Virus record (IMG/VR): IMGVR_UViG_3300044736_000016
Span: 1 to 64,000 of that record
Source: a virus
Length of the DNA stretch: 64,000 bases
Direction: 5' to 3' (one strand)
The translations under genes were made by a program, and so were the position numbers. Positions 6,936-47,460 of this stretch are shown here, in pieces. The notes beneath the pieces were generated by a model. That model was not told the origin of the DNA, made no database searches, and saw only the letters and a list, made by a program, of their open reading frames with translations. Within the stretch, counting starts at the first letter, position 1; each line of letters starts with the position of its first letter.

Positions 6936-7508
6936 ATGCAGGCAGGGGCACAGGTGTCCCAGGGTGACGGTGACTCAGGTCACAGCACGATGGATGATGA
7001 CGCCACGACCGAGGAACCGCTCCTCACGACGATCCCGCCCGGTTGGGTGGGAGTTCGCGGTGCTGCCGTACGGTTCGGCGTCAGTGCGGGCACTATCCGG
7101 CGCCACTACGGTGAGTACAAGTCGATACCGTTCCGCAGGCTAACCGATGGTCGTATCATTGTCAATGCTGCGGCGATCCCCGAGGGTCATTTCAAAAAGA
7201 CCCACCGCCACCGCAAGATGATGGAAGAGGTGCGGCAGGAGATCGTGCAGCGTGCGGATGCGGAGCCAACCGACGATGAACTCTCCGCTGTGCAGGTGAT
7301 CCGTCGTCACGTACGCTGGCTTGAGCAGACGATCGAGGAGTTGCAAAACCGCCACGCCGAGTACGAGCGCGAACGCAGGCGTATGGAGCAGGCGCACCGG
7401 GCCGAGTGCCAGCAGTTGCTGGCGATCATCTCTAGCCTGACCAACGCCACGCAGACACCCGCCTCCAGCCCCCGCCGTGCGCGTCGCAAGGCCACAGAGA
7501 CGGGCTAG
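6936..7508 (+). CDS. HTH regulator with long coiled coil
   Basis: 190 residues. Residues about 33-75 form a helix-turn-helix of MerR/excisionase type (AAVRFGVSAGTIRRHYGEY, then RRLTDGRIIVNAAAIP as the wing). Residues about 115-165 form a coiled coil ending in a basic tail, so it probably dimerises. Two promoters, one with an operator-like repeat, precede it, which fits an autoregulated switch protein. ATG 6936 is two bases after a four-codon upstream frame; MDDDATTEE at 6990 is an alternative start. Confidence 0.65.
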   Translation: MQAGAQVSQGDGDSGHSTMDDDATTEEPLLTTIPPGWVGVRGAAVRFGVSAGTIRRHYGEYKSIPFRRLTDGRIIVNAAAIPEGHFKKTHRHRKMMEEVRQEIVQRADAEPTDDELSAVQVIRRHVRWLEQTIEELQNRHAEYERERRRMEQAHRAECQQLLAIISSLTNATQTPASSPRRARRKATETG

Positions 7509-7921
7509 GGGGCAGGCTTCACCGTCACGCGGACCGAGACGCCGCCGCGGGAATCGCGGCCCTCTGTGGGCATCGGGTAGTCCAACCACCGCGGGGCGTC
7601 ATCAACGATCCAACCAGAATCACGGAGCCCATCGAGACAAGGTTTCAGCGCGGCGCAAACCTGATCGAAATCGCGCATGCGCGACCGTGGTCCGCGCAGT
7701 AGCACGAGTTCGAGGCGACGGCGCTCGTCGGCAGGCGGTAGCCCGAGGCGGTTCCGGTGGCTGCGCGCCACCAGAGCAACGCAGTTGCGGATGGCCTTGG
7801 TCTTCCGGGCGCGCACCTGCCAGCACAGCCTGCTGTTGGCGGTAGGCGGGTCCTCTGGCAGCCGCACGTCGAAGGTGACACCCTCGGGTGTGAGAGACGG
7901 CAGAGGAGCCCGCATCGCCAT
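7505..7921 (-). CDS. rusA: RusA-like Holliday-junction resolvase
   Basis: 138 residues. The family core is clear: beta strand RRRLELVLLRG, then MRDFDQVCAALKPCLDGL, then WIVDDAPRW, giving the acidic D...D...DD set of RusA/YbcO-type endonucleases, here with Gln where N/K are usual in the first motif. It would cut branched DNA before packaging. Its stop overlaps the stop of the regulator on the other strand (CTAG). A GTG at 7930 is an alternative start. Confidence 0.75.
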   Translation of the reverse strand: MAMRAPLPSLTPEGVTFDVRLPEDPPTANSRLCWQVRARKTKAIRNCVALVARSHRNRLGLPPADERRRLELVLLRGPRSRMRDFDQVCAALKPCLDGLRDSGWIVDDAPRWLDYPMPTEGRDSRGGVSVRVTVKPAP

Positions 7922-7940
7922 GGTGGTCACCCGTTCGCAG

Positions 7941-8261: not shown

Positions 8262-8383
8262 GCTCCCTCCGTACCGGCGACGGCCGTACCGTCGTCTCTA
8301 TGATCGCGTTTGTCTCTCAGCGTGGAGATAGGCACGATCGTCCCGCCCACGGCCGCAGCGGGCAAGTGCGAGACGTCGGCCAT
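8258..8383 (-). CDS. 41-residue hypothetical protein
   Basis: Starts in a TGATG junction with the VirD4/TraG-like ATPase and ends in an ATGA junction with the next gene. The N-terminal half is hydrophobic (VSHLPAAAVGGTIVPIST), the rest charged. Coupling on both sides supports it. Confidence 0.5.
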   Translation of the reverse strand: MADVSHLPAAAVGGTIVPISTLRDKRDHRDDGTAVAGTEGA

Positions 8384-10152
8384 CAGGCGCCCTCCTGCTT
8401 GGCAACGTCTGCGGTTTCCGCGAACATGTCCGAGAACACCCCTGGTACGCCCGCATCTGTTTCGGTCGAACCCTGCTCGTGGATCTGGTCGAGCCCGTAC
8501 GGCACCGTGAGCTTTCCCCACATCTCGAACGGACGAGTGTCGCCATGGTAGACCGTCTTGGCAAGCGTGATCCGCTCGCTCATGCTGATAAGTACCTTGC
8601 CATCCGCGATGTTGGTGATCTCATGCTGCGGCCAACGCCATTCATCATGCGGCGTCACAGTGCGGGTGACCGTACGGGTGCGCCGCTGCTCCTTGTGCTG
8701 CGCATGGCGCTCGTGGCTGGCGTGGTCGTCGTCGACCGTCGGCTGCTGGCGCCACCACGGGGCACGGGTGCGGGCCACCGCCTTGGTCGTCCGGTGGATG
8801 GTGTGCTTGCCGCCGGTCCGCTCAAGGCTGGCGAGCAGCTTGGGATCCTTGCACCCGCGCAGCACAGCGGTGACCGCCATGCCCTCGCGGACCACCCTCT
8901 CGGTCTCCGCGTTCCACCGCAGGCTGAACTGTCCCATTGCCTGCACGGAGGCCATGAGCACGACCCCGCGTCCTCCCCCGTCGCCGATGATCCGCGTGAG
9001 AGACGGCAGGGGACTGAGCGTCGCCATCTCGTCCAGCGCAAGCAGGAACGGCCGCTCCAATGGCTGCCCACCCCGGCTGTCGGAGATGGTGTATGCCGCC
9101 TCCGTGATCTCCTCGATTAGCCCGGTGGTCAGCGGCGCCAGGTCGCAGTTCGGGTCCGAGGGGGCGACGACGAACAGCGCATGATCGCGGCCCAACTGCG
9201 GTCGGACGCTCGGGTCATGCTCGTCGTATCCGAGGAACTCGTACGGGTCGAAGCCGCACTCGCCAGCAAGGTTCGCATCCGCCAGGACCCGCGGGTTGTC
9301 GAACGCCGAGATGGCCGCGTCGAGGCAGGACCATACAGACCCCACCTCATCGCTCTCGCGCACCTTGGGGTCGCGCAGGGTCAGGCTGGCTAGGTTCTCG
9401 AGCGCCTGCCGGTCCGGGCAGAGATGTGGGTTCCCTTCCCACCGCGCGATCCTGGTCTTGAGGATGTCCGCTGGCTCGTCCACGTTGTGCTGCTTCACCC
9501 ATGAGCGGACGTGCCCCATGCCCTTGCCGTCCAGCGCAGCGGCGTACAGGAGCGGCGCAAGGTACTGCGTGGCCCGCGTCTGCCAGTGGCTCGGATCCTT
9601 GGCCCCTTTGCCGGCGTTGATGCCCATGGCTCGGGCGCGCTTGGTGGCAACGTAGAAGTCCTCGCAGCCTCGCAGCGGAGACCAGTGCAGGCGACGCACC
9701 CACGGCGGCACGTCGTCGGCTCCGAGGATCTGCATGGGGTCGAACACCCACACCTTGCCGCGGTAGGTGCGGACCGCCTTGCAGTGCTCAAGGATGTCCG
9801 GCTTGGTACTCGTGGCGACGACCGGTCCCAGCCACGCCTGCACGTTGGGGATGATCAGCGTGGCGGTCTTGCCTCGCTGCGAGATGGCGACGATCAGGAC
9901 GTGCTCACGCGGAGGAGCCTGCACGAACCGGCCCTTGTCCCAGCCTAGAATGGGGCGTCCGGGGATGATCCCGTGCCAGATCGGGTCAACGGGATCAAGG
10001 CAGTGTAGCCGGGGCGGACGGAGGCGCTGGCCATCGCGGAACACTGGGGAGGCGTGGTACTGAGCGAGGAGGCGCGGACCGTAGCGCATCTTGCCGTGCC
10101 AGCCAAGGCCACTCATCCCGGCGAGAGCGGCGACGATCTCGGGGAGGATCAC
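8383..10152 (-). CDS. VirD4/TraG-like coupling ATPase
   Basis: 589 residues related to type IV secretion coupling proteins, which pump DNA to a conjugation channel. HVLIVAISQRGKTATLIIPN (about 84-103) is the Walker A region, with the first Gly of the P-loop replaced by Ala; ATSTKPDILEHC follows as in TraG/VirD4; RPFLLALDEMATLSPLPSL is Walker B; ASVQAMGQF is the sensor region. Unlike VirD4 and TraG, no clear N-terminal membrane anchor is visible. No relaxase or VirB4 homologue is present in the window. It may move the phage genome during conjugal-type transfer, or work with the nearby membrane proteins as another translocase. It overlaps the gene upstream by ATGA. Confidence 0.8.
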   Translation of the reverse strand: MILPEIVAALAGMSGLGWHGKMRYGPRLLAQYHASPVFRDGQRLRPPRLHCLDPVDPIWHGIIPGRPILGWDKGRFVQAPPREHVLIVAISQRGKTATLIIPNVQAWLGPVVATSTKPDILEHCKAVRTYRGKVWVFDPMQILGADDVPPWVRRLHWSPLRGCEDFYVATKRARAMGINAGKGAKDPSHWQTRATQYLAPLLYAAALDGKGMGHVRSWVKQHNVDEPADILKTRIARWEGNPHLCPDRQALENLASLTLRDPKVRESDEVGSVWSCLDAAISAFDNPRVLADANLAGECGFDPYEFLGYDEHDPSVRPQLGRDHALFVVAPSDPNCDLAPLTTGLIEEITEAAYTISDSRGGQPLERPFLLALDEMATLSPLPSLTRIIGDGGGRGVVLMASVQAMGQFSLRWNAETERVVREGMAVTAVLRGCKDPKLLASLERTGGKHTIHRTTKAVARTRAPWWRQQPTVDDDHASHERHAQHKEQRRTRTVTRTVTPHDEWRWPQHEITNIADGKVLISMSERITLAKTVYHGDTRPFEMWGKLTVPYGLDQIHEQGSTETDAGVPGVFSDMFAETADVAKQEGA

Positions 10153-10922
10153 AGCGACCGCCCTCCGTAGGCGGGCTCGTTGACGGGCGTGTAGGCGGTC
10201 AGGTCGCGGGTCGTGGCGTCAGCTTGTGCGGCAGGCGTGGCTGTGCGTGACGCCTCGGCAGTGCTCAGGCTGTACACGTCGAGCGGCTTGGCTCCACCAC
10301 GCTCCAGCGTTTGCTTCAGGTTGGCAGGCACGCTCGGGCAGTAGGTATCGGTGCTGGCTTCCAGCTTCTCGCCGATAAGCCAGCCGTTCGCCGCAGCGTT
10401 GAGACCGAAGATGTCGCATGCATCCGGCATGTACTGCGGGTAGTCTGGTGGCGTGCCATCGGCCTTCGAGACCGCCTTCGACCACGCGATGCCTTCCCGC
10501 TCTGCGTCTTTGAAGTGCTCCGTCTTCCGGATGGCGTCCGCTGCGGGTGAGTGCGGATCGACCGTCCAGTTCGGTCCGCCGAAAAAGTGCAGTAGGCTGG
10601 GAGCGTCGCGGTGCAGGCCATCGGGCAGTGTGGCGGTGGCAGATGTCGACCTTTTTGCCTCGCTGCCGCCATAGTTCTGACGCAACTCTGCGATGCGTGC
10701 AGCCAGCCCGGCCTTGCAATGTGTCCTTGCCTCCTCGGGGCTCATCTCGCCGTGGTCGATCAGCGCTTTCTCATGTTGCTTCCACTGAGCCGTGACAATG
10801 GCCTTGGCATACACCCAGTCTGGGTCGGCCTCCTCAGTTGCGCTACCCGTGCTTCCGCCTCTAGGCGCGATGCTGGATCCGCCCGGGATAGGCTCTCCTG
10901 CGCCGATGTATGCGCTGGTCAT
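10149..10922 (-). CDS. Hypothetical protein of the coupling-ATPase operon
   Basis: 257 residues, unrecognised. Disordered N-terminus, helical DPDWVYAKAIVTAQWKQHEK, then a mixed region with GGPNWTVDPHSPAADAI. ATGA overlap with the ATPase gene suggests a partner or substrate adaptor for it. Confidence 0.65.
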   Translation of the reverse strand: MTSAYIGAGEPIPGGSSIAPRGGSTGSATEEADPDWVYAKAIVTAQWKQHEKALIDHGEMSPEEARTHCKAGLAARIAELRQNYGGSEAKRSTSATATLPDGLHRDAPSLLHFFGGPNWTVDPHSPAADAIRKTEHFKDAEREGIAWSKAVSKADGTPPDYPQYMPDACDIFGLNAAANGWLIGEKLEASTDTYCPSVPANLKQTLERGGAKPLDVYSLSTAEASRTATPAAQADATTRDLTAYTPVNEPAYGGRSL

Positions 10923-11152
10923 GTCACTCGCACCGTATAGATGCGCTGGCGGTCTTGGAATCCCCTCGCGATTTTGCGGTCCCGCTCCAACAGAACCAGT
11001 GCTCGGTACGTGCGCGCAGCAGGGATGCCGGTGGTGTAGGCGAGGATGTCGATGACGTAGATGTTGCCGCTGCGGATGGCTTGCAGTACGAGTTCGCAGT
11101 CACCCGTGGTCCGGCGTCGGCGGAACAGTCGGGAAAGAATCCCCATGTGCAT
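10919..11152 (-). CDS. Small winged-helix protein
   Basis: 77 residues. IYVIDILAYTTGIPAARTYRALVLLERDRKI reads as a winged helix (helix-turn-helix about 31-56, wing after it), as in PadR- or DprA-type domains. A basic N-terminus (RLFRRRR) could also bind DNA. Possible operon regulator. Confidence 0.6.
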   Translation of the reverse strand: MHMGILSRLFRRRRTTGDCELVLQAIRSGNIYVIDILAYTTGIPAARTYRALVLLERDRKIARGFQDRQRIYTVRVT

Positions 11153-11155
11153 CTC

Positions 11156-12127
11156 CTACAGTGACCGGCCGGGCTGGTGGGATGCGTCGACCTCGGCCTC
11201 GTCGCGAATTGGCTCGGCTGGCGCAGAGGGTCCGCCGATTGCCTCTCGCATGACCGAGGCCGGCACCCCGTTCGATTCCGCGCTGTTGGAACAGGTCGCG
11301 GTGGCCACCACCTTGCCCTGGTCAGGGTCTCCGGGGTTGGTTAGGACCATCGGCGAGCCTGACCAACCGGGCACGACGGGCTGATCGACCACGGTGGAGT
11401 GATAGGCATGGTCGGAGCCCTCAGGATGGACCATCTCCGTCCCCGTCACGTTCGCCGTGATGACGCCACGATCCGAGACGATCGCCACCTGATCGCCGGG
11501 TTGCGCATCGCGCGATGCCAGTTCGAGCGCGCCGTCTCCGTCGCTCTGCCGCCCGCTGACCACCGCAAAGTCGCTGTCCGGAGTAGACGCGATCGTCTGG
11601 TGCATCCAGTCGTCGCGGACGACGTGTCCCGCTGTCGCTCTGCCGGTGGTGCCGTCGGGCATGCGCAAGTCCCACGCCGTCCCTTCGCCCGGCATGCGTA
11701 CGCCGGCCGCGTAGATCCTGCCCGTGTGCGCCTCCGCGTTTCCGATCGGGGCGGTCGCTGCCACGCTGTCGTATCCGTGCCCAGCCGCGAAGGCGTCGTG
11801 CTCCGCTGCCTGCGGGGCCATACTCGCGGTGGTGGACTTCATGGTGGGCTGGCCCATGTCGCGCTCGAGCGAACGGGACGCGGACGCCGCAGACACATCG
11901 GCCTGAGCTGGTGCCGCACCTCGACGCGCTGCGGGTGCCGATGGTGGGTCGAGGTGATGGATAGGCACCCTGCCCTCGCGGAGCACGGAGACCGCTCGGA
12001 ACGCCCCGCTGTCGACGTGACGCTTCACCGTGCTGTCGAGGTGACGTGGGGCCACGCAGTGCCGGGACTGGCGACCGCTCTGGTCCTCCAGCACGACCAT
12101 GGCAGGTTGCTGCTGACGGCTGAACAT
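11156..12127 (-). CDS. Trypsin-fold serine protease
   Basis: 323 residues. The C-terminal half has a complete chymotrypsin-like triad: TAGHVV (His168), DSDFAVV (Asp186) and PGWSGSPM (Ser256, with Trp in place of the usual Asp before Ser). Residues 1-130 are Ser/Ala/Arg-rich and probably disordered. No signal peptide is evident. It lies 5 bases after the polyprotein gene, which ends in a second protease, so the pair may process the polyprotein or act at the envelope. Confidence 0.75.
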   Translation of the reverse strand: MFSRQQQPAMVVLEDQSGRQSRHCVAPRHLDSTVKRHVDSGAFRAVSVLREGRVPIHHLDPPSAPAARRGAAPAQADVSAASASRSLERDMGQPTMKSTTASMAPQAAEHDAFAAGHGYDSVAATAPIGNAEAHTGRIYAAGVRMPGEGTAWDLRMPDGTTGRATAGHVVRDDWMHQTIASTPDSDFAVVSGRQSDGDGALELASRDAQPGDQVAIVSDRGVITANVTGTEMVHPEGSDHAYHSTVVDQPVVPGWSGSPMVLTNPGDPDQGKVVATATCSNSAESNGVPASVMREAIGGPSAPAEPIRDEAEVDASHQPGRSL

Positions 12128-12132
12128 CGCTC

Positions 12133-15100
12133 CTATCCCATCCCGTGCGAGTTGCCGCCGATTTCGTGCGGCGGCGTGGTGTCTGTCTCTGCCGCGGAGT
12201 GATCCGGGGCGAGGTCTCTCGTCTCGGCCGTATCGCGCTCCGGCGTGCGGTCGGCCCTCGGCTCATCGTCACGCTTCGGCTCTGCGGGCTCCGGCGTGTG
12301 ATCTGCCTCCTGCTCATCGCGTCCCGGCTCGTTCTTGGCGGTGCGATCGGCCATCTCGGGCGCAGGCTCCGATTCTGGCGTGTCATCGGGCTCCGGGCGG
12401 GCTTCATTTGGCTGCTCGCGGTCCTGCTCCTCGGCAGCGTCAGGGCGCGACGGTCCATCAGTAGGCCGATCAGTAGCGCGCTCCTCCACGGCGTCATCCG
12501 CGGGATTGACGATCAGTTTGCGGTCTTGCGCCAAGTCTGCGAGTAGAGGCTGATCCGGGATTGCGTCTTCGGCAGTTGTCCGTGGATCCCCGACAGCGTG
12601 GAGAGCGTCATTGATGGGGACGGCGTTGGTGTCTGGAGCGTCCGGCGGATCGGTACCTGCGTCCACGACGCCTATAACTTGCCCGCGGTTATTCAGAAGC
12701 TGCCCGCCTGAATCCCCTGGATCAGATCGTGCGTCCACTTCGATGGTGTCAGCGACGTGGACAGGCTTCCCGGTGACATCATCTGGACTTGTGATTTCGT
12801 CCGCATGCGGGCTGGTCACGCGGCCGGTGTGGCTGTCGGTGCTGTGGCCGTAGTCGCCGACGATGCTCACAGGATCGCCAACCGCCACGTTTTTGGAGTC
12901 GCCGAGCACGGCCGGGTTCATTGGTGGTGCTCCCTCCACTTCCAACAGGTCAACATCGTGAGCCGTGTCGTCTCTAAGTACGAGTGTCTGATATTGATGG
13001 CTATCGACTTCCACGATCGTCGGCTGGTGCAGAGCAGCGGCATCCTCAACAACGTGGTGAGCGGTGAGTAACCGGTTGCCTGGCAGTACAATGCCTGTGC
13101 CCACGCCGTGGCCGGATGGATCGACGATGCGCGCGATGCCAGCATGGGTGGCGGTTGGCGCTGGTGAGATTGGTACTGGGGTATCGTGCAGAGTAGGTCC
13201 ACCGCTAGCCATCAGCGCTGCCGCGACAATGCCGACGCTGGGATGCGTCACCTGCCTATGCGCTGGCATTTCTTCTGCGCTGACGTGAGGTGTGTCGATC
13301 ATCTGCGGCACGGACCTTTCTGGTACTTCTACACTGATCGGCTTTGGCGACAAGCCAACCAGATCCGCGAGCCCATGTCGCTCCAGCACGTCGGGGTCAT
13401 GGGGTGGGCGCTCTGCTGGCTGCGCGTCGTCGACCGTGGGAGGTGGCGGTAGCTCGGCGTCTTCCGGTCGCCCAAGCCCACGTCTGCGCTCGGGTGGCAC
13501 GGCGTCCTCGGTCTCGTTCCCTGCGTCGATCGGAGCCCGTTCGGGCAGCCCACGCTCCCCCGCTCGAGTAAGCCCACGTCGGAGTTCGGGCGCTACGCCA
13601 TCCTGCTCTGCCGTGCGGCTCTGTCCGTACACAGGCTCAGGCAGATCGCCAGTGCCAGCCTGCCGCAGACCACGCTCGCGCTCTGGCGGTGTGGTGCGTG
13701 GACCCTGCCCGCCCAACCTCGTCCACGCCTCGTCCAAGTTGCGCTCGAAGGTCTCGCGGTCGACGGGCAGGCCACGCTCGCGTGCCTTGGCAGCCACTTG
13801 TGCCTGTGTGGCGTAGGCGTCGCTCCAACCCGGCGGTGTGGTCGTGCTGGCGGGCTCGGCATCACTTACCGCGCCGTCTCGCAGCCACGACGTGTCCGTC
13901 AGCGGGCTGGGGACGTTCTGCCGTGGGGCACTCGGGCTAGCCTGCTGCTCCCACATTGGCGCTGCGTCGCGGAGGCGTCCAGACTGCTCACGCTCGACCG
14001 GAGCGGCCTGCATCTCACGCAGTGCGGATGCGTCGGTGATCTGCTGGAGTAGGTCGGGCTCCTGCGACCCAGCGTGAAGCCGATGACGTTCTGCGGTCGG
14101 CAGGCCAGCGTGGCCGTTCCCTACCGCACCCGCCATGTCCACGATCTCTGCGGTGACGGGCCGGCCGTCCACACGCGTCACCACGGGCTGCGCTGCGTGC
14201 TCTGGTGTGGCTGTGATCCCACGGCGCTCGGCAGCGAATACGTCGTATCCATCCCGTCCCACAGCGTCGCGCACCGTTGATGTGGGCGGCGCATCGGTGA
14301 TGGCGGGACGTTCGGCGGACACGGTGCGGTCACGGTCCTGCGCATGTTCCTGCTCGGCTGCGGCCATCCGTGCCTCACGTTCCTGCCGCTCTGCCGGGGT
14401 ACGGAGTTCGTCGCGCGGATCCGGCACGACCTCACGGTGCGCTCGGTGCATGTCTGCCGCGGTGGTGCCGGGTGGAAGGCCGTTCAGGTCGTCAACCATC
14501 CACGCGTCGTTGATCGGGTCCGATCTACGCTGCTCGTCCATCCTCTGCGCGAACCGCTCTAGCCGATCGTTGCGTCCAACGTCCGGATCCACTACCGCTA
14601 TTTGCTCGGCGCTGTGGAGTTCTTTGCGCAGATCCATGTTGACACCGTTCCCCAGCGCAAGGTCGACATCGGAGTGGGACAGATGCGTGCCGAAGTCACT
14701 CTCGCGGTCGATGTCTGAGTAGTCACGTCGCCGTGCCGCTCCACTGTGCTGGATCACGGTCAGCCCTTCCGCCTCAGCCGCTTCACGGATGCGCTGTGCG
14801 GTCTCTGGAGTGGCGAACCCTTCCACCGCCGCGTTCTGGTGAAAGATGTCCCCGCCGTATCCGACGCTGTTGGCCATGCCCGGTTGAGAGCCGATGGTCG
14901 CGAACCCGGCGTGGTTCATGCGGACGAGCGGGTCTTTGATGAGCGCCGTCTCGGAGTCGGGATCGGGATGGCCGTTCGGATGTGCAAGATGACCGGGCAG
15001 GAATTGCTCTGCGGTGATCTTGCCGAGGTGGTTGATCGTCGTAGCGTCGCTCCAGTCGCGGATGACGCGCTGCTCGCGAGCGGGCCTTTCCGCAGCCAAC

Positions 15101-16629
15101 ACGTCCGGTACCGACTCCTTCACCAGCCCATGCTGCTTGGCGAGGACGGACGCGGCCGTGCCCTCTTCGTGGCCGTTGATCCTGTCGACTTGCCGTAGTT
15201 CCTCAAGCGAAGGCACTCCAATGACCTTGCCGTCCTTGTCGAGTGCGAGCGTGGAGGTGTTCGTCTCAACCCCACCGCGGAGGAATAGCGCGTTTTCTGC
15301 CACCCTGGCCGCGCGCTGAGCACGCGGAGAGGCGACGGACTGCGGCACGGCGGCTGCGTTGGCCACGGCCTCCTCGCGCTGTATGCCGTCGAGGGACCGT
15401 ATTCCTCGCTGGACCCGTTGCTCCTGGGCAGGCGTCAGGGGAACCACGCCAGCCGTGTCACGCTGCGGGGTCCGTGGCTTCCGTCCGCCGAGCACCGGCA
15501 CGCTGGAGCCGAGGGCGTCCGCGATGCTCGCCACGGACGGCATACGGCGTGGCTTGCTGGCGTGGCGCTGGCGGCCGTTGCTACCGCCGCCTCCACCGCC
15601 GTTTCGCGCTGCGCTGGCCGGTGGCTTGGCTGCGGCCCTGCTGCGTGCGTCCGGCGTGGCCGGTGGCTTCTCGCCGCATGCGCTGACCACCTTGCCGCCG
15701 ATTCCGGCGACGAACGACCCATGAGCGCCGACTTCGAGATCCCACAACTGCCGCTGCCGTACCGCCTTGCGCGCCTGCTGGTTGCCGAGCCACGAGTGGT
15801 GACCGCTGTGGCCGTGGCCTGCGTCCATGCGACGTGCCTGATACGTTGGACGGAACGGTGCGAACACGTGCTCGATATCGGTGCGCTCGCCGAGGGTCTC
15901 CGCAACGATGCCCATCATGGTCACCAGAAACGCAGAGGTGGTCGGAAGGGGTTTCCAGTCTGGGCCGTAGTAGCCCTTCAGCAGTGCACGGCGGTAACGT
16001 TCGTCCATCCCGAGACCCCATGGCGGGACCGTCTTGGTGTGAGGCTTGTCGCCGAAGTGCTCTGCCAGAAACCGTGCCTGCTCGCGGTCGCGCCCCTCGA
16101 AAGTGACGCCGCCGCCGCTCTTATCCTCGCGTCCCGTCCAACCTGAGAGATACTGGCGGATGTGCTGCGCCTCACGCTTATCCGAAGCCTTGATCGTGAT
16201 GCGATCGCCGTTGACTTCACCACTGCGTAGGTAGGAGCCGACGAGATGCCATTCCTCTGGCGTCTCCGGTGCACCAGCCGGGATCGGCAGCGGATCGATG
16301 TGAGTTGGTGTGGCCCACGCGTGGCGCCGCTTGTCGAACAGGCCCGCGCTCATCCATCCGGGTGTCCCGCCGTTCGATGTGGCCCGCACCAGCACGGGGT
16401 GGCCGTCCGACGCCTCAATCCCAGCATGCCCATGCCCAGACACCCGCACCGTCGAACCCTTGCGCCGATGGACGTTCGTGACAGGCTGCCAACTGCCGTT
16501 GCGATCGAGCACGCGGTGGCTCTGGCTGACGTCCTGCATGTGCATGATCCGCTCGTCTGTGATGACGGGCGTCTTGCCGGGAAACCCCTCGGGCGGACGG
16601 CGCGGCGGCTTGGAAATCTGCGTGGGCAT
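12133..16629 (-). CDS. Giant polyprotein: degenerate intein, DUF6919-like region, trypsin-like protease
   Basis: 1,498 residues. 1: residues about 15-320 resemble an intein: an N3-like HRVLDRNGSWQPVTNV, block B EASDGHPVLV, LAGLIDADG-like LVGSYLRSG and ALLKGYYGP, and block F LWDLEVGAHGSFVAG. The nucleophile Cys1 and the C-terminal His-Asn are lost (VVSAC at the end), and the endonuclease acidic residues are gone, so it should neither splice nor cut. 2: about 560-640 holds MNHAGFATIGSQPGMAN, resembling actinobacterial DUF6919. 3: long charged, repeat-rich linkers. 4: about 1165-1330 is an HtrA/trypsin-like protease: LLTAHHVV (His about 1189), DVDLLEVEG (Asp about 1226), DPGDSGGQLL (Ser about 1305). 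5: a Glu/Asp/Arg-rich tail. ATG 16629 is chosen because upstream codons are non-coding in character and a small membrane gene ends at 16635. Possible roles: virion protein injected with DNA, or conjugation surface protein. Confidence 0.75.
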   Translation of the reverse strand: MPTQISKPPRRPPEGFPGKTPVITDERIMHMQDVSQSHRVLDRNGSWQPVTNVHRRKGSTVRVSGHGHAGIEASDGHPVLVRATSNGGTPGWMSAGLFDKRRHAWATPTHIDPLPIPAGAPETPEEWHLVGSYLRSGEVNGDRITIKASDKREAQHIRQYLSGWTGREDKSGGGVTFEGRDREQARFLAEHFGDKPHTKTVPPWGLGMDERYRRALLKGYYGPDWKPLPTTSAFLVTMMGIVAETLGERTDIEHVFAPFRPTYQARRMDAGHGHSGHHSWLGNQQARKAVRQRQLWDLEVGAHGSFVAGIGGKVVSACGEKPPATPDARSRAAAKPPASAARNGGGGGGSNGRQRHASKPRRMPSVASIADALGSSVPVLGGRKPRTPQRDTAGVVPLTPAQEQRVQRGIRSLDGIQREEAVANAAAVPQSVASPRAQRAARVAENALFLRGGVETNTSTLALDKDGKVIGVPSLEELRQVDRINGHEEGTAASVLAKQHGLVKESVPDVLAAERPAREQRVIRDWSDATTINHLGKITAEQFLPGHLAHPNGHPDPDSETALIKDPLVRMNHAGFATIGSQPGMANSVGYGGDIFHQNAAVEGFATPETAQRIREAAEAEGLTVIQHSGAARRRDYSDIDRESDFGTHLSHSDVDLALGNGVNMDLRKELHSAEQIAVVDPDVGRNDRLERFAQRMDEQRRSDPINDAWMVDDLNGLPPGTTAADMHRAHREVVPDPRDELRTPAERQEREARMAAAEQEHAQDRDRTVSAERPAITDAPPTSTVRDAVGRDGYDVFAAERRGITATPEHAAQPVVTRVDGRPVTAEIVDMAGAVGNGHAGLPTAERHRLHAGSQEPDLLQQITDASALREMQAAPVEREQSGRLRDAAPMWEQQASPSAPRQNVPSPLTDTSWLRDGAVSDAEPASTTTPPGWSDAYATQAQVAAKARERGLPVDRETFERNLDEAWTRLGGQGPRTTPPERERGLRQAGTGDLPEPVYGQSRTAEQDGVAPELRRGLTRAGERGLPERAPIDAGNETEDAVPPERRRGLGRPEDAELPPPPTVDDAQPAERPPHDPDVLERHGLADLVGLSPKPISVEVPERSVPQMIDTPHVSAEEMPAHRQVTHPSVGIVAAALMASGGPTLHDTPVPISPAPTATHAGIARIVDPSGHGVGTGIVLPGNRLLTAHHVVEDAAALHQPTIVEVDSHQYQTLVLRDDTAHDVDLLEVEGAPPMNPAVLGDSKNVAVGDPVSIVGDYGHSTDSHTGRVTSPHADEITSPDDVTGKPVHVADTIEVDARSDPGDSGGQLLNNRGQVIGVVDAGTDPPDAPDTNAVPINDALHAVGDPRTTAEDAIPDQPLLADLAQDRKLIVNPADDAVEERATDRPTDGPSRPDAAEEQDREQPNEARPEPDDTPESEPAPEMADRTAKNEPGRDEQEADHTPEPAEPKRDDEPRADRTPERDTAETRDLAPDHSAAETDTTPPHEIGGNSHGMG

Positions 16630-16634
16630 TTTGG

Positions 16635-16814
16635 TTATCCCAGACGTGCGTGGCTGCCGGGCATGTAGGCGTAGATGCACATGACGCCGATGAGTGCGCC
16701 GATGATGCCGCCTACCACCCTGACCACGACTTTCTGTCTGAACCCCGTGATGGCGAGCCTGATGCCCATGAACACCGCGACTCCACCGACGAGACAGATG
16801 GCTATGCCCAGCAT
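16635..16814 (-). CDS. Small membrane protein, two TM segments
   Basis: 59 residues: MLGIAICLVGGVAVFMGIRL forms TM1 and VVGGIIGALIGVMCIYAYM forms TM2, with a short basic loop between. It sits 2 bases after a similar small membrane gene. Size and topology resemble VirB2/TrbC pilin-like or VirB3-like subunits, but sequence alone does not prove this. Confidence 0.65.
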   Translation of the reverse strand: MLGIAICLVGGVAVFMGIRLAITGFRQKVVVRVVGGIIGALIGVMCIYAYMPGSHARLG

Positions 16815-31398: not shown

Positions 31399-33519
31399 CT
31401 ATCCAGCCCTCCGCTGACCCTTCCAGTGCCTGATCAGGCGGCCCATCTCGGACTCGCTCACGTAGGCACCCTGCATCCGGCGCGTCTCGCCGTCGTCGTT
31501 CAGCCTGCAGAGCATGTCCCCACGGCCCGCCAGTTTCTCCGCTCCCATCTCATCGAGAATGACCCGCGAGTTCACCCCGCTCGAGACCCGGAAGGCGATG
31601 CGGCTGGGGAAGTTCGCCGTGATGTCTGCTGGGATGAGTTCCGCCGAGGGTCGCTGGGTTGCCGCGACAAGGTGGATCCCGGCCGCCCTGGCAAGCTGAG
31701 CCAGCCGCTGCAGGGCCTCCTCCACGTCATCCTTCGCCCGGAGCACAAGGTCGGCAAGCTCGTCGATCACCACCACGATGCGGGGCAGGGGCTCGGCCCT
31801 AGTGTTGTGCTGGGCGATGTTCTTTGACCCACTGCCGGCGAGGATTCGGTACCGCTTGTCCATCTCGTCGACCACCTCGCGGAGCGCCTCAACCGCCTCG
31901 TCAGCGTCGTTGACGATGGGCCGTAGCAGATGGGGGATGCCAGCGTACCCCTCCAACTCGACCACCTTGGGGTCGATGAGCACGATCCGTAGTTGATCCG
32001 GGGTGGACTGCAACAGGAGCGAGGCGAGCAGGACGTTGATGTACACGGACTTGCCGGAGTTCGTCGCCCCGCCGATCAGCAGATGCGGGGTGGTCGTCAG
32101 GTCGCCGACCGCGGACTGCCCGGAGAGGTCTGCGCCGAGGGCGATGGCCAGCCCGGTGCGGGCCACGATGCGGAAGGCCGGGGCCTGCACGAGGGACCGC
32201 AGGGTGACCAGCTGGGCGGACTTGTTCGGCACCTCGATGCCCACGGCGGCCTTGCCGGGGATCGGCGCCTGGATCCGGATGGTGGCCGCAAGGGCGAGGG
32301 ACAGGTCGGTCTGCCGCGTGGTGATGCGCCTGACCGACACGCCGGGGGCAGGCTGTAGGACGTACTGCGTGACCCGCGGGCTGGGGTTGACCTCGATCAC
32401 CCGACCCATGACGCCGAAGGATTCCAGCGTGGATTCGATCAGCGAGCGGGTGTTGGCGATCTCCGCTTCCTGCCGAACGCGGTCAGTCTTGCCCTCGTCT
32501 AGAAGGTCGATGGGCGGCAGGAGCCACTCTGAGTGCCCCGTCTCCAAATCTGGCAAGACCATGAGCGCGGTCTGTCCGGAGTCGCCAGCTGGATACTGCC
32601 CGTCATCCGTGGCGGGTTTTGGAGACTCCGATGGGCGCGGAGGGTTCGCCATGGCCTCTCGCATCGGGCCGGCCAGCCACGGCACGCCCTGCCAGTTGCG
32701 TCCAGCCTGAGCGGGAGCGTGCGTCTCGTCCTCCGCAGGCTCCTCCGTGTCGCCGCTCTCCTCGCCACGGATCCATCCCCACAGTCGCTCAGACCGTAGC
32801 CCACGCCGCATCCCGTCGCGCATCGCACCGGCCACCACCGGCACATCAAGGTCCACGGCTAGCACCAGGCCGAGGCACGTCAGGCCGACGAACAGCACCA
32901 CCGACCACCACGGCCCGACCCAGCCAGCTGCCGAATCCGCCAGCGAACCTCCGACCGACCCTGCCCCGCCCCGCGTCCACGGCACCAACGCGGTCAGCCC
33001 GAGCAGCCCCGGGATAGCGATGCCCACCCCCGCAGCCGAGGCGTGACCGTGCCCCAGCAGCAACCGAACTCCGACCAGCAGCAGACCGGCCACGAGCAGA
33101 GCATCCCCGACCACCCCCAGCCAGTCCGTGAGCATCGAGCCCTGCGGGATGAGCAGGAGCGGGATGGAGAGCAGCGCCGCGATGAGCGCCCCGACGCCGT
33201 GCAGGTTGCGCCGCTGGTCGTGGGTGACCTTGGGCGCCTTGGCGGTACGCCTTGCCGGTCGTCTGGTCCGGGTCGCCATCACGCCTCCTGCGGGAAGGTC
33301 GGGGAACTTGCGGCCGTGCTCTTTCTCATGGCACGGACGGCAGAGCACCATGAGGTTCGCACGCCTGCAGTCGTTCGGTCTGCGGTTCTTGTGGTGAGCC
33401 TGTAGCGCCCGATCCGTCTTGCACCGCTTGCATCTCTGGCCTCGGCGGAACTCGCGGCTGAGGTCGGGCCAGCACTCCGGGTAGTCGGTGCCGGGGTAGA
33501 CGCGGAACGTGGTAGCCAC
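31399..33519 (-). CDS. ftsK: HNH domain fused to FtsK/SpoIIIE DNA translocase
   Basis: 706 residues. Residues about 30-68 are an HNH/zinc domain (CKRCKTDRALQAHHKNRR, MVLCRPCHEKEH). Residues about 100-215 hold four TM helices. Residues about 350-700 are an FtsK motor: Walker A GGATNSGKSVY (about 480-490), Walker B VVVIDELADL (about 585), then LAATQRPS and FPSRIAFRV. No gamma DNA-binding domain is visible. ATG 33279, behind AGGAGG, starts an FtsK product without the HNH. Related one-protein pumps (TraB) drive conjugation of Streptomyces elements, so this is a strong candidate for DNA transfer or segregation. Confidence 0.88.
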   Translation of the reverse strand: MATTFRVYPGTDYPECWPDLSREFRRGQRCKRCKTDRALQAHHKNRRPNDCRRANLMVLCRPCHEKEHGRKFPDLPAGGVMATRTRRPARRTAKAPKVTHDQRRNLHGVGALIAALLSIPLLLIPQGSMLTDWLGVVGDALLVAGLLLVGVRLLLGHGHASAAGVGIAIPGLLGLTALVPWTRGGAGSVGGSLADSAAGWVGPWWSVVLFVGLTCLGLVLAVDLDVPVVAGAMRDGMRRGLRSERLWGWIRGEESGDTEEPAEDETHAPAQAGRNWQGVPWLAGPMREAMANPPRPSESPKPATDDGQYPAGDSGQTALMVLPDLETGHSEWLLPPIDLLDEGKTDRVRQEAEIANTRSLIESTLESFGVMGRVIEVNPSPRVTQYVLQPAPGVSVRRITTRQTDLSLALAATIRIQAPIPGKAAVGIEVPNKSAQLVTLRSLVQAPAFRIVARTGLAIALGADLSGQSAVGDLTTTPHLLIGGATNSGKSVYINVLLASLLLQSTPDQLRIVLIDPKVVELEGYAGIPHLLRPIVNDADEAVEALREVVDEMDKRYRILAGSGSKNIAQHNTRAEPLPRIVVVIDELADLVLRAKDDVEEALQRLAQLARAAGIHLVAATQRPSAELIPADITANFPSRIAFRVSSGVNSRVILDEMGAEKLAGRGDMLCRLNDDGETRRMQGAYVSESEMGRLIRHWKGQRRAG

Positions 33520-36271: not shown

Positions 36272-36805
36272 TCACGACGCCTCATCCACGTCGCGATCAG
36301 CCTCGCAGTCTCCGACAGGTGCTGGCGGCACAACCGAAGGCGACGGCAGGGTTGCCTGTCTGATGATCGCCATCACCGTCTCGGTGGCCTCCGCGTACTT
36401 GGAGCCGCGGCTGCGGTTCACCCCGTACACCTGCTCCACGATGAACGGCACGGTGGCTCCGCTGTGGACTAGTTCGATGACCTGCCGATTGACGCTCTCC
36501 GCGATCTCAGGGGCGATCACGGTATTGGTGTCGTGCAGCATCCGAACCTCCGGCCTGCGTAGTGGCTCATTCATGGCCGATGGAGTGATGTCCGTGCCCC
36601 AGTCGAACCCGAAGCTAGCCATCGGCGGAGCCGCCAGATACGCGATGAGTCTGCGCATCGTATCCGGCTCGTCGCGAACGAAGCCAAGGGCACAGTTGCA
36701 GGCATTGCAGATCAGTCCACGTATCTTCCCAGTTTCGTGGTCGTGGTCTACGACCAGTTTCCGGTACTGGGTGCATCCGATGCAGGTGCCGAAGACATTG
36801 CTCAT
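36272..36805 (-). CDS. Recombination endonuclease VII with extra C-terminal module
   Basis: 177 residues. TCIGCTQYRKLVVDHDHETG followed by GLICNACNCALGFVRDEP is the zinc-binding, catalytic core of the T4 endonuclease VII family, which resolves branched DNA before packaging. A second domain (about 105-155: SGATVPFIVEQVYGVNRSRG, then AEATETVMAIIRQA) matches the C-terminus of the ATPase encoded by the next gene upstream, with which it overlaps by ATGA. Confidence 0.85.
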   Translation of the reverse strand: MSNVFGTCIGCTQYRKLVVDHDHETGKIRGLICNACNCALGFVRDEPDTMRRLIAYLAAPPMASFGFDWGTDITPSAMNEPLRRPEVRMLHDTNTVIAPEIAESVNRQVIELVHSGATVPFIVEQVYGVNRSRGSKYAEATETVMAIIRQATLPSPSVVPPAPVGDCEADRDVDEAS

Positions 36806-38469
36806 AGGTCATCCTCTCTCGGTTCGTCTTCCATCGGCAGAATGGTCAGCGCAGGCACCGCCTCAGCGCTCGGCGGACGAGGGATCGCACTACGGATCAC
36901 CTCGCTCACCTCGGCGCACGCCGTCACGTATGGTCGCCCGCCCCCCGGCTTGATCCCGTAGATGTCGAGCACGATCTCGGGGACGAGAGACCCTCCGAGG
37001 AACAGTTCCATCACCCGACCCTCCAACACGCGCGCGCGCGAGGGCTCCTCTGTTCCGTATTCGGATGGGGTCGGTCCGGAACAGATCGCGAGCGGCTGGG
37101 AACGGCTCGGGAACAGGGCGGGAACAGTCTGCGGAACAGGCCCGACCGTCAGCCGTGGGCCGTTCGAGGCCAGCATCCGACCCGCCAGAGCGATGGCCTC
37201 GTCGTCCACGCGAGGCACCCAGAGCCGATGCGTTTCGCCCGTCGTCGGTATCACGTAGCACTCGCCTTGGGCCAGCCGCAGGGTGTCGTTCGGCACGCCG
37301 GGAACGAGCATCCGCGCCTCGTCTGGACGCATGCGGTGGATGAAGGCGGCGGCGAGTTGGTTGCGGAACGGGCCGGATTCCCGCTTGCTCCACGTCTGCG
37401 AGATGAACAGCCCGTTGACCATCACCTTGCGTCCCTCGCGGGTGATCGTTCCGGCGTGCTCCGCGATCTCTCCGGTGGTGTCCTCGCCGATGACGCGCCT
37501 CCACTCGTCCACGATTGTGAGCTCGGGCTGACCGTCTTCGATGCCGAGCTTGATGCGCCGCTCGATCTCCTCCACGGTCTCGCGCATGGCGAGCAGGATG
37601 TCCTCGTGGTCGAGGGCGATCGGTCGGATGAACGCGGCCTCGAGCGGGCGAAGGCGACCCGTCAGGCTTTTGGCGCTGATCCGTCCGTGGCCGTCGCAGA
37701 GGCGCAGGCCGGTGCCGATCAGGGCGGCTTGGATGCACAGCCATTCCGCGTCGCGAGACTTGCCAGAGCCCTGATGCCCACCCATCCCGGCCGAGTAGAG
37801 ACCAGCGAACATGTCGCCATCCTCGGTCGGCTCGGAGCGGACTAGGGAACTCGTCGCGGGATCCCAGCCGAGGGCGAGGAGTTGGCCGGGGCCGACCTCG
37901 CGGCGCCGGATGAGTTCGGTCAGCGTCGGCACCTTGACGTCGGCGGGGTTGGTGATGACCACCTCGGGCTCAGCGACGGGGCTGGCGATTCGGCGAGAAT
38001 CGTGGACCGCGTAGTGCTGTAGGCCAGCAGGCAGGGCTGGATTCGTCGCTAGCAGGTTGCGGGTCTGCATGGCGCCAGAGTTGATGGCGATTCGCAGTTC
38101 TGGCGTCAGCCCCTGATACGCCACCGCCCCGGTGAGCCTGTCCGGCATGTCACGCTTGCGCCAGAAGTGCCACCCGAGCGCAGCCGGAGATCCGACCGCT
38201 CCCACGAACACCGCAAACAGCACGCCGTCCTCTACCAACCGCAGCCACGTCGTCGGCCGGTCGAAGTGCCACTCGCTGTCTAGCTTGGCGTTTACGGCGT
38301 CGATCTTGGCCTGCCGTTGCTCTTGGCTGAGCCGAAGGTCGGTCTCGATGCGAACCTGCTCTTGTGTCGGGCCGGGGGTGGTGATCGCAGACCAGCAGAA
38401 GCCAATGCCGCATGCGCAGAACCCGGCAGCTGCGAGAGAACCGGCCCAGCGGACGTGCGAGTGGCTCAC
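36802..38469 (-). CDS. FtsK/HerA-like membrane ATPase
   Basis: 555 residues. Two TM helices (about 7-30 and 78-100) precede a P-loop motor: GMGGHQGSGKSRDAEW (about 225-240) is Walker A, LTIVDEWRR (about 320) Walker B, GLFISQTWSKRE the sensor region. The last 90 residues hold the module shared with the endonuclease gene (LVPEIVLDIYGIKPGGGRPY). GTG 38469 is chosen because it overlaps the previous stop (GTGA) and directly precedes TM1. Such proteins are typical of actinobacterial plasmids and integrative elements; DNA transfer is the likely role. Confidence 0.8.
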   Translation of the reverse strand: MSHSHVRWAGSLAAAGFCACGIGFCWSAITTPGPTQEQVRIETDLRLSQEQRQAKIDAVNAKLDSEWHFDRPTTWLRLVEDGVLFAVFVGAVGSPAALGWHFWRKRDMPDRLTGAVAYQGLTPELRIAINSGAMQTRNLLATNPALPAGLQHYAVHDSRRIASPVAEPEVVITNPADVKVPTLTELIRRREVGPGQLLALGWDPATSSLVRSEPTEDGDMFAGLYSAGMGGHQGSGKSRDAEWLCIQAALIGTGLRLCDGHGRISAKSLTGRLRPLEAAFIRPIALDHEDILLAMRETVEEIERRIKLGIEDGQPELTIVDEWRRVIGEDTTGEIAEHAGTITREGRKVMVNGLFISQTWSKRESGPFRNQLAAAFIHRMRPDEARMLVPGVPNDTLRLAQGECYVIPTTGETHRLWVPRVDDEAIALAGRMLASNGPRLTVGPVPQTVPALFPSRSQPLAICSGPTPSEYGTEEPSRARVLEGRVMELFLGGSLVPEIVLDIYGIKPGGGRPYVTACAEVSEVIRSAIPRPPSAEAVPALTILPMEDEPREDDL

Positions 38470-42831: not shown

Positions 42832-43659
42832 GTGGCTGCACTGTTCTCACACGCCCGCAGACTGGCTGCCGCGCTCGACCCTGTCATCCGGATGCGACAG
42901 GCTGGTATCACCGCTGACCAGTGGCAGGAGATTCTTCTACGTAGCACTGCGCAGCGGATCATCATCCTCGCATCCCGCCAAGGGGGGAAGTCGACCGTCG
43001 TTGCTACGGACGCCTTGCATGTCGCTGAGCAGGACCCGCCCGGCGACGTCATCATTGGCGCGGTCAAGCAAGATCAGTCAGCGGAAATGCTTCGGAAGTC
43101 CAAGACGATCTACGGCATCACGGGCAGCATCTTCGAGGACGAACTGGACGGCGATCTCAAGGGGAACTCGATTCTCCGGGTGGAGATGCCGAACGGGTCG
43201 CGAATCCTAGCGGTGCCAGGGAAGGCTGGCACTGTGCGATCGTTCACGGCCAAACTGCTGATCATCGACGAGGCGGCCTACGTCCCTGACGACTTCTACA
43301 AGGCCGTCTTCCCCATGCTCGCCGTATCCCACGGCCGCATCATTCTGCTCTCCACCGCGCATGCCAAGTTCGGAGCGTTCTATGACATCTGGACCGAGGC
43401 GCCTGAGTGGGACTTTCGGCTGCCAGCTGAGGCGCAGGAGGAGGCGTGGCTCAAGATCAAGGTGCCGTGGTGGGAGTGTCCGCGTATACGGCCGGCTTTC
43501 ATCGAGGCTGAGCGAGCGAGGTTCGGCAACGCTTACGTGCAGAGGGAGTACGAGTTGGAGTTCGCCGACGCCATCACCGCTGCCTTCCGCACCGAGGACA
43601 TCGACGCCATGGCGCGCGACGACGTGGAGCCGTGGGCGTGCGCAGGGTGGGCGCGGTGA
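42832..43659 (+). CDS. terL: Terminase large subunit, ATPase half
   Basis: 275 residues, covering only the packaging ATPase. ASRQGGKST (about 47-55) is the Walker A variant of large terminases; KLLIIDEAAYV Walker B; LLSTAHAKFGAFYDIW the coupling motif; DFRLPAEAQEEAW and FEDELD lie around it. The reading frame ends after VEPWACAGWAR, just where the linker to the nuclease normally begins. The nuclease half is a separate gene at 44246. Start GTG 42832. Confidence 0.85.
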   Translation: MAALFSHARRLAAALDPVIRMRQAGITADQWQEILLRSTAQRIIILASRQGGKSTVVATDALHVAEQDPPGDVIIGAVKQDQSAEMLRKSKTIYGITGSIFEDELDGDLKGNSILRVEMPNGSRILAVPGKAGTVRSFTAKLLIIDEAAYVPDDFYKAVFPMLAVSHGRIILLSTAHAKFGAFYDIWTEAPEWDFRLPAEAQEEAWLKIKVPWWECPRIRPAFIEAERARFGNAYVQREYELEFADAITAAFRTEDIDAMARDDVEPWACAGWAR

Positions 43660-45564: not shown

Positions 45565-47460
45565 GTGGCGATCCTCGGTCCTGACGGTCGGGCGTTCCCA
45601 CAGACCACACGCGCAGAGTTCGCGGCTGCTCAGTCCGTACTATCGCGGCTACCTGCCGAACTGCGTCGTGCCGTGAACCTTGACGAGATCGGTGTCAGCG
45701 CTACCCAGATCATCGGGGGACTGATCTACGAGGAACGGGCGCCCGAACTCGCCGGGTCCAAGGGCATGGAGGTGTGGCGGGAGATGGGGCATGACGCCAC
45801 CTTGGCGATGTGCCTCCACGCCACCATCAACCCGCTGCGCAGCGCCGACTGGTTCATGGAGCCCGCGAGCGAAGACCCTGTCCACGTCGAGCAAGCTGAC
45901 CTCGCACACTGGTGCCTGTGGGAGTTCGGCACCATGTCATACGACGACCTGTTGCGCCAGCAGATGCGTGCCATGAAGCAGTACGGGATTGGATGCTCAG
46001 AGCTCTGCTATCGACCGATTCCCTCCGGTGAGTTCGCAGGCAAGTGGGGATGGGAGAAGTTGGCGTGGCGTTCACCGCTGTCCCTCTACCGCTTCAACGT
46101 CGAGTCGGTGCAGACGGAATACGGTGGCACGCGTCGCGAACTCGTCGAGGTGGTGCAGCGTGATCCTGCCAGCGGTGGGCTGTTCTACCTTCCCAAGGAC
46201 AAGGTACTGCTGTTCATCAACGACCTCGAAGGTGAAAACTTCCTCGGCAATTCAAGCTTTCGCCAGTGCTACGAGGCATGGCGGTACAAGCGTGCCATCG
46301 CGCGCCTGGAGGCCATCGCCCTAGAACGCTGCGGGATGGGACGCATGAAGGCCACGCTTCCGCAGGACTACTCCGACGAGGAGCGCAAGATGGCGCGGCA
46401 GATCGTTGAGAACGACCGCATCCACGAGAACGCCGGCATCGTCACCACCGAGGCGGTGCCGGTCGAGGTCATCCACAACTCAATCGAGGGGGCGGCATTC
46501 CGGGCGGCGTGGGAGGCGTACGACGCGGCGCTGTGCTTCCCGTTCCTCACGCAGTACCTGCTGCTCGGGCAGCGGGGCAACAGCGGGGCGTACTCGCTCA
46601 GCCAAGATCACTCGCAGATTCAGCTCACGCAGCTCAACGGTGATGCGAACCAGTTCGAGCAGGTGCTGAATCTCAGTCCGGGCATCCCGCTGCTCATCGC
46701 CATCAACTACGCGAACGCCGACCCGAGCAAGATGCCGAAGTTGCAGCACGGAGACATCGGCCGCAAGGACATGGAGCTGATGGGCAAGACCCTTCTCGCG
46801 CTGTCGCAGGGTGGGTGGGTCATGCCGACAGCGCAGGACGAGGACACGCTGCGCAAGTTCGTCGACCTCCCGGAGCGCGATCCGCTGCTCGGCCCCGAGG
46901 CGTTGGTGCCGCTCATCCAGCAGGTGCTGCCGCCGACGTGGTGGGGCACGCCGCACCAGGCTGGACAGGCGGTCAACCCTGCGGCCAAGGCTCTGGTCGG
47001 CTCTGGGACGCCCGTGTCGAGTGTTCAGCAGGCGACCGATGCGAAGGGGCAGTTTTCCGAGCGTGAGTGGGCCGTCATGGCTGAGCGATCGGTGAGGGCA
47101 CGGATGCCGTGGCGCCGCCCTGCGGTCAAGGGTGGACGCGTCACCGCCGAGGACGCTGTGAGGGTGCGGATGGGGGAGTATCTGTTGGACTACTTCGAGC
47201 AGGCCGACCGACCACGTATGCAGAAGCCCGACTCGCCATCGGTGCGCATTGCCAAGCGGCGCAGGCCGTACCAAGTAGCGCGTATGGCACAGGATGCGGC
47301 CAAAGTGGTGGAGATCAACGCACGAGCCAAGGCGGGCGGCGGGAGTGCGAACGGCAAGCGCAAGGTGGTCGTGAGCCCAGCGGACATCGTAGCGAGGCAG
47401 GGGCGTAGGTCGGTGCAGGACGTGCTTGCGGGCCTCGGCGCGAACGGGAGCGGGAAGTGA
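45565..47460 (+). CDS. Portal protein (DUF935, Mu gp29-like)
   Basis: 631 residues. Family features of DUF935 portals are clear: ATQIIGGLIYEERAPELAGS near the start, the LHATINPLRSADWFMEPAS block, WRSPLSLYRF, GLFYLPKDKVLLF, and the helical stem with GQRGNSGAYSLSQDHSQIQL. Ends in a Lys/Arg-rich tail. It forms the dodecameric gate through which DNA enters and leaves the head. GTG start follows the previous stop directly. Confidence 0.9.
   Translation: MAILGPDGRAFPQTTRAEFAAAQSVLSRLPAELRRAVNLDEIGVSATQIIGGLIYEERAPELAGSKGMEVWREMGHDATLAMCLHATINPLRSADWFMEPASEDPVHVEQADLAHWCLWEFGTMSYDDLLRQQMRAMKQYGIGCSELCYRPIPSGEFAGKWGWEKLAWRSPLSLYRFNVESVQTEYGGTRRELVEVVQRDPASGGLFYLPKDKVLLFINDLEGENFLGNSSFRQCYEAWRYKRAIARLEAIALERCGMGRMKATLPQDYSDEERKMARQIVENDRIHENAGIVTTEAVPVEVIHNSIEGAAFRAAWEAYDAALCFPFLTQYLLLGQRGNSGAYSLSQDHSQIQLTQLNGDANQFEQVLNLSPGIPLLIAINYANADPSKMPKLQHGDIGRKDMELMGKTLLALSQGGWVMPTAQDEDTLRKFVDLPERDPLLGPEALVPLIQQVLPPTWWGTPHQAGQAVNPAAKALVGSGTPVSSVQQATDAKGQFSEREWAVMAERSVRARMPWRRPAVKGGRVTAEDAVRVRMGEYLLDYFEQADRPRMQKPDSPSVRIAKRRRPYQVARMAQDAAKVVEINARAKAGGGSANGKRKVVVSPADIVARQGRRSVQDVLAGLGANGSGK

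Follow-up and report, generated by a model that had tools for sequence, protein, structure and literature searches.

Trypsin-like serine proteases are uncommon in phages but already known there. Among tailed phages they are represented by the PHROG families phrog_9683, annotated as 'protease', and phrog_11383, by Rhizobium phage AF3 and by cluster N of the alphaproteobacterial phages, a cluster to which such a protease is common (PMC10783043), and BFVD likewise includes phage trypsin-like proteins. Two narrow patterns recovered trypsin-like proteases from 33 viral contigs, the short ones of which may include host DNA, and no tandem protease pair was seen in the examined stretches of these contigs. 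The original prediction that proteases of this fold are rare in phages is thus true only loosely. Trypsin-like peptidases encoded with ATPases and effectors are also a known defence theme, found in CARD-NLR/gasdermin systems and nuclease-protease pairs (Hachiman, AVAST, Lamassu, DRT) (PMC12799240, PMC13236601), and the locus described here resembles them in having a trypsin-like protease fused or adjacent to a larger protein and an ATPase in the operon. What distinguishes it from the known phage proteases is that an optional protease domain and a divergent stand-alone enzyme stand in tandem.

The window that we analysed is the left 64 kb (64,000 nucleotides) of the 109,768-base virus record IMGVR_UViG_3300044736_000016. 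The record is that of a tailed, temperate phage, in which we found a terminase (42832-43659), a Mu-type portal (45565-47460), a Mu-like I protease/scaffold gene (Mu-like_Pro, 63114-63341) adjoining the portal and capsid genes, capsid E and a tyrosine integrase. Far from this head module, a leftward, tightly packed operon encodes both proteases (all operon coordinates are on the minus strand). It includes a large multidomain protein (12133..16629), with a 61-aa protein (16817..17002) and a 59-aa protein (16635..16814), each with hydrophobic segment(s), encoded upstream of it; the stand-alone protease, here called protease 2 (11156..12127); a 75-aa protein (10919..11146) that is weakly winged-helix-like (DprA_WH, E 0.07) and 96% identical to its counterpart in a sister phage; a 257-aa protein of no assigned function (10149..10922); and, adjoining the latter, a VirD4/TraG-type coupling-protein-like ATPase (8383..10152). 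The product of a further minus-strand gene, at 7505-7930, looks on reading like a Holliday junction resolvase of the RusA type, and it has no Pfam match at E 0.01. Elsewhere, two very long, low-complexity Gly/Ser/Ala/Val-rich repeat proteins of 985 and 920 aa (locus L002, 5082-8039 and 13548-16310), encoded near a GDSL-hydrolase gene, may form tail fibres or otherwise lie on the surface of the virion.

The large protein has 1498 aa from the preferred ATG (1598 aa if translation starts at the GTG at 16929) and comprises a HINT/intein-like region (residues 16-320), a DUF6919 domain (~524-690), a Trypsin_2 domain (~1165-1345), here called protease 1, and an acidic, low-complexity tail of ~150 aa (~1346-1498), with proline/alanine/arginine-rich, low-complexity linkers between the domains. 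Protease 1, which carries a GDSGG motif (12667..13101), matches Pfam Trypsin_2 at E 8.8e-17 (62.6 bits against a cut-off of 27.6) and Pfam Trypsin at E 1.9e-9, the Pfam matches spanning residues ~1276-1433 in the 1598-aa GTG-start ORF, and reaches E 1.9e-19 with PF13365 in a profile search of its own record; its best matches of known structure are HtrA-type proteases (E 4e-10). The triad, H1192 (13056-13054), D1225 (12957-12955) and S1307 (12711-12709) in ATG numbering, is invariant in a 20-row alignment with 19 viral-contig relatives, and a single-sequence query with the domain found no close relatives among the viral contigs. The original prediction had described an HtrA-like protease with a full triad at the end of a polyprotein. 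The full triad is borne out, and 'HtrA-like' is apt for the protease domain but not for the whole protein, which has no PDZ domain, signal peptide or membrane segment; nor does the protein strictly end in the protease, since the acidic tail follows it. It is one multidomain protein whose status as a polyprotein is unproven. Its HINT region is degenerate and HINT-LAGLIDADG-like; it is similar to probable intein segments in long DNA methylases of phages and reads as missing its splicing residues, with GFP.. in place of CFP.. and SAC in place of HNC; the sister large protein matches Hint_2 at E 0.004, under the cut-off. A comparison that might have traced this region to the phage's own methylase gave no similarity.

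Protease 2 is a 323-aa protein that combines a conserved N-terminal segment (residues 1-60), a divergent trypsin-fold core (105-305) and a conserved C-terminal tail. As predicted, it begins 5 bases downstream of the large-protein gene: its ATG at 12127 follows the TAG of the large protein, which ends at 12133, a Shine-Dalgarno-like GGAG overlaps that stop, and the arrangement suggests that the two are probably translationally coupled. Direct sequence searches leave the protein isolated. It has no match above cut-off in Pfam, none in the PDB by phmmer, no direct homolog among INPHARED phages and PLSDB plasmids (tblastn) or GTDB contigs, and no homolog in 296 Actinomycetota genomes, where a single 16.6-bit match lay outside the core; the viral contigs yielded one sister phage and no further homolog. 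PHROG 9683 matches it weakly (E 0.006), and the sister protein matches Trypsin_2 (PF13365) below threshold (E 0.05). Profile-profile comparison is far clearer: hhalign places the core on a set of phage Trypsin_2 proteins with a probability of 92-94% and E of 2e-7 to 7e-7, scoring 50.7 against a maximum of 20.4 in 40 column-shuffled controls, and aligns H168, D186 and S256 (positions 11626, 11572 and 11362) in register on catalytic residues that are invariant in 17/17 sequences. An AlphaFold2 model of the core (11213..11815, as delimited for hhalign and AlphaFold2) built on this 17-row alignment is a strand-rich domain (pLDDT 80.2, pTM 0.78). Its PDB matches include Streptomyces griseus proteases as well as HtrA and MarP proteases, the latter two at Z of ~20, with Z 20.4 to MarP Rv3671c. 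A two-row alignment gave pLDDT 37. Trypsins of known type make up 15 of the 17 rows, so the fold is partly imposed and the model does not constitute independent proof. These alignments confirm protease 2 as a divergent homolog of trypsin-fold proteases with a predicted complete triad, in agreement with the original prediction.

The active-site motif GWSGSP, which had been called unusual, is present and conserved in the sister phage and is a modest variation. The sequence G-x-S-G-S-P occurs too in V8-type and flavivirus NS3 proteases. Both phage proteases share a complete H-D-S triad with the Trypsin_2 domains of the HtrA-DegP-MarP proteases but have no membrane anchor, and protease 2 differs further in being too divergent for direct sequence matches and in having GWSGSP rather than GNSGGP. 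Pfam scans found no PDZ domain in either protein, and the cut-offs of the full-length NCBIfam DegP/HtrA models were far from reached. We infer that both serine proteases, with their complete triads, are catalytically active. The two gave no match to each other in a direct BLAST comparison, and a recent tandem duplication as the origin of the pair was therefore rejected.

Comparison with the only close relative found, a viral contig of 79 kb (IMGVR_UViG_3300044734_000006), separates what is constant in the operon from what is exchangeable. The sister phage has the same operon with gene order kept (large protein, protease 2, an extra gene, 75-aa protein, small protein, ATPase), and identities are 93% for the ATPase, 76% for protease 2 and about 80% over the shared parts of the large protein. 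The extra sister gene (L005 7564-8250), which separates protease 2 from the gene for the 75-aa protein, is weakly RNA ligase Rnl2-like (E 0.006). A segment containing protease 1 (12544..13371, large-protein residues ~1087-1362) is precisely absent from the sister, between short similar stretches (GLADL ... LLADLAQD here, GLRDLAQD in the sister), and a Trypsin_2 profile search over the whole sister record gave no match. As the sister nevertheless keeps the large protein and protease 2, protease 1 cannot be required for processing of the large protein, and the absence of a Trypsin_2 match fits an arrangement in which protease 2 acts in trans and protease 1 is optional. Sister protease 2 keeps the triad and GWSGSP, and its first 64 aligned residues are identical; the cores are only ~64% identical, yet all catalytic residues and the G-x-S-G are kept. 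Between the two cores pS is 0.49, pN 0.25 and dN/dS 0.38, whereas the flanks show pS of 0.13-0.30, below that of the core, so that in this comparison of two sequences the core looks like an exchanged segment of divergent origin that is under constraint. The 257-aa protein and its sister counterpart (L005 8504-9004) have bodies that can barely be aligned and a nearly identical C-terminal tail of ~36 aa (...AYGGRSL); GRSL is also the C-terminal end of protease 2. This coincidence was noted post hoc, and the number of pairs with GRSL-type ends expected by chance is 0.7 among all genes and 0.001 within the operon; a search for the shared tail motif in other genes of both records found nothing significant.

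The ATPase points to the probable source of the module. It matches PF02534 (E 1.7e-13), PF12696 (E 1.8e-11) and, under that model's cut-off, the VirD4-like CD1115 model (E 1e-12). The relatives found, in 307 records, are actinobacterial plasmid coupling proteins, to which it is 25-32% identical and with which it shares Walker A (QRGKT) and the TraG-D C-terminal region; no relatives were found in INPHARED phages. The phage protein differs from these plasmid relatives in its shorter N-terminus, which hydropathy shows to be without membrane segments, and the two phage records contain no MobF-type relaxase (TrwC); no type IV channel gene was noticed in the record, and the coupling-protein neighbourhoods of three plasmids that we inspected held no annotated protease pair. 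As DUF6919 is likewise matched mostly in Streptomyces plasmid proteins, the module has plasmid affinity, the ancestry of the operon is apparently that of a plasmid, and the plasmid and Streptomyces relatives of its proteins suggest a host in the Actinomycetota. Of two other minus-strand genes of the window, the one at 31399-33519 encodes an FtsK/SpoIIIE-type translocase whose N-terminal region is HNH-like, and the one at 36802-38469 encodes a protein in which hydrophobic segments and a P-loop were recognised by eye; the phage possibly has three translocase-like ATPases in all, including the VirD4-like one.

Several functions could be proposed for such a pair. A protease is needed for head maturation in many phages, and the tandem proteases might be thought to process heads or virions; we consider this extremely unlikely, since each of the two phages has its own, distinct Mu-like I protease/scaffold gene, the tandem pair lies ~50 kb from it on the opposite strand and in a separate operon, and the sister phage manages without protease 1. 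Secretion or surface display, with modification of the lysogen's envelope, would suit HtrA-like proteases, which usually act there, and the two membrane-type proteins encoded upstream, and the original prediction had proposed that host envelope proteins might be cut. An export signal was looked for, and no segment that resembles a signal peptide or would span a membrane was seen in either protein (no 19-residue segment exceeds a hydropathy of 1.6), which renders an envelope role highly improbable and makes cytosolic action the simplest reading. It is also quite improbable that either domain, or the two together, serve only for binding and lack catalytic activity: pseudo-proteases do exist in the trypsin fold, and protease 2 escapes BLAST and phmmer and stays under Pfam cut-offs, but the retention of its catalytic residues through the divergence of the two sister cores, together with the complete triad of protease 1, argues against such silence.

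The main rival, because trypsin-like proteases function in known systems of this kind, is a prophage-borne defence or superinfection exclusion function, in which a competing phage would switch the proteases on and cleavage would activate or destroy a target. In its favour, the protease 1 domain resembles the protease part of the PADLOC RT-Protease models (E 6e-14), and the operon is mosaic and lies outside the head and tail modules. That match is limited to the trypsin part, however, with no reverse transcriptase; Pfam and PADLOC scans found none of the defining partners, namely a STAND/NLR ATPase, gasdermin, CARD or MBL nuclease, in the operon, where divergent partners may escape the libraries; and the operon ATPase is instead VirD4-like, so we regard a defence role, which the original prediction had also raised, as unlikely. 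That same ATPase invites a different proposal, in which the proteases would be cargo, with exchangeable bodies and conserved end signals that the ATPase reads; once transferred into the virion or a second cell, they would cut a target there. Recognition of C-terminal effector signals by coupling proteins of some type IV systems is a theme of two reports (PMC6759196, PMC8262851), and two proteins of this operon carry conserved tails ending in GRSL on replaced or diverged bodies. Against cargo delivery stand the lack of a MobF-type relaxase (TrwC), of a noticed channel gene and of membrane segments in the ATPase, the brevity of a four-residue signal for which about 0.7 chance pairs are expected among all genes, and the different tail of the large protein; we judge it distinctly unlikely. 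In a bolder version, which seems very unlikely, the phage, itself lacking a full conjugation apparatus, would have captured a plasmid-type coupling module and would use it for sorting or delivering exchangeable, terminally marked cargo, both proteases included.

We therefore favour, tentatively and at somewhat less than an even chance, a limited cleavage of the operon's own large protein in the cytosol, in which protease 2 would be the resident enzyme and protease 1 an optional one. Both proteases would be made in the host cytosol from the one leftward, closely packed operon; the conserved N-terminal segment of protease 2 would probably dock it on a partner, and its core would cut operon products, the presumed substrates, at limited, specific sites, most plausibly in the disordered linkers of the large protein encoded directly upstream. 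Protease 1, a domain that the large protein may have or lack, would contribute further cleavage in cis, and a functional link of the module to the VirD4-like ATPase may be suspected. The likely coupling of the two genes, the low-complexity linkers and the fact that protease 2 is kept by a phage without protease 1 make limited processing by protease 2 our leading idea, in keeping with the original suggestion that the proteases could process the polyprotein. Neighbouring genes need not encode an enzyme and its substrate, however; both proteases could instead have host proteins as targets, and the large protein could persist uncut.

The proteases have the look of genuine enzymes that play an accessory part in a cytosolic gene module, and not of capsid-building machinery. 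In this phage operon, an optional protease accompanies a divergent trypsin-fold enzyme that ordinary sequence searches do not detect. If the enzymes are active, they would offer a simple test case for the roles of non-capsid phage proteases, with one obvious candidate substrate.
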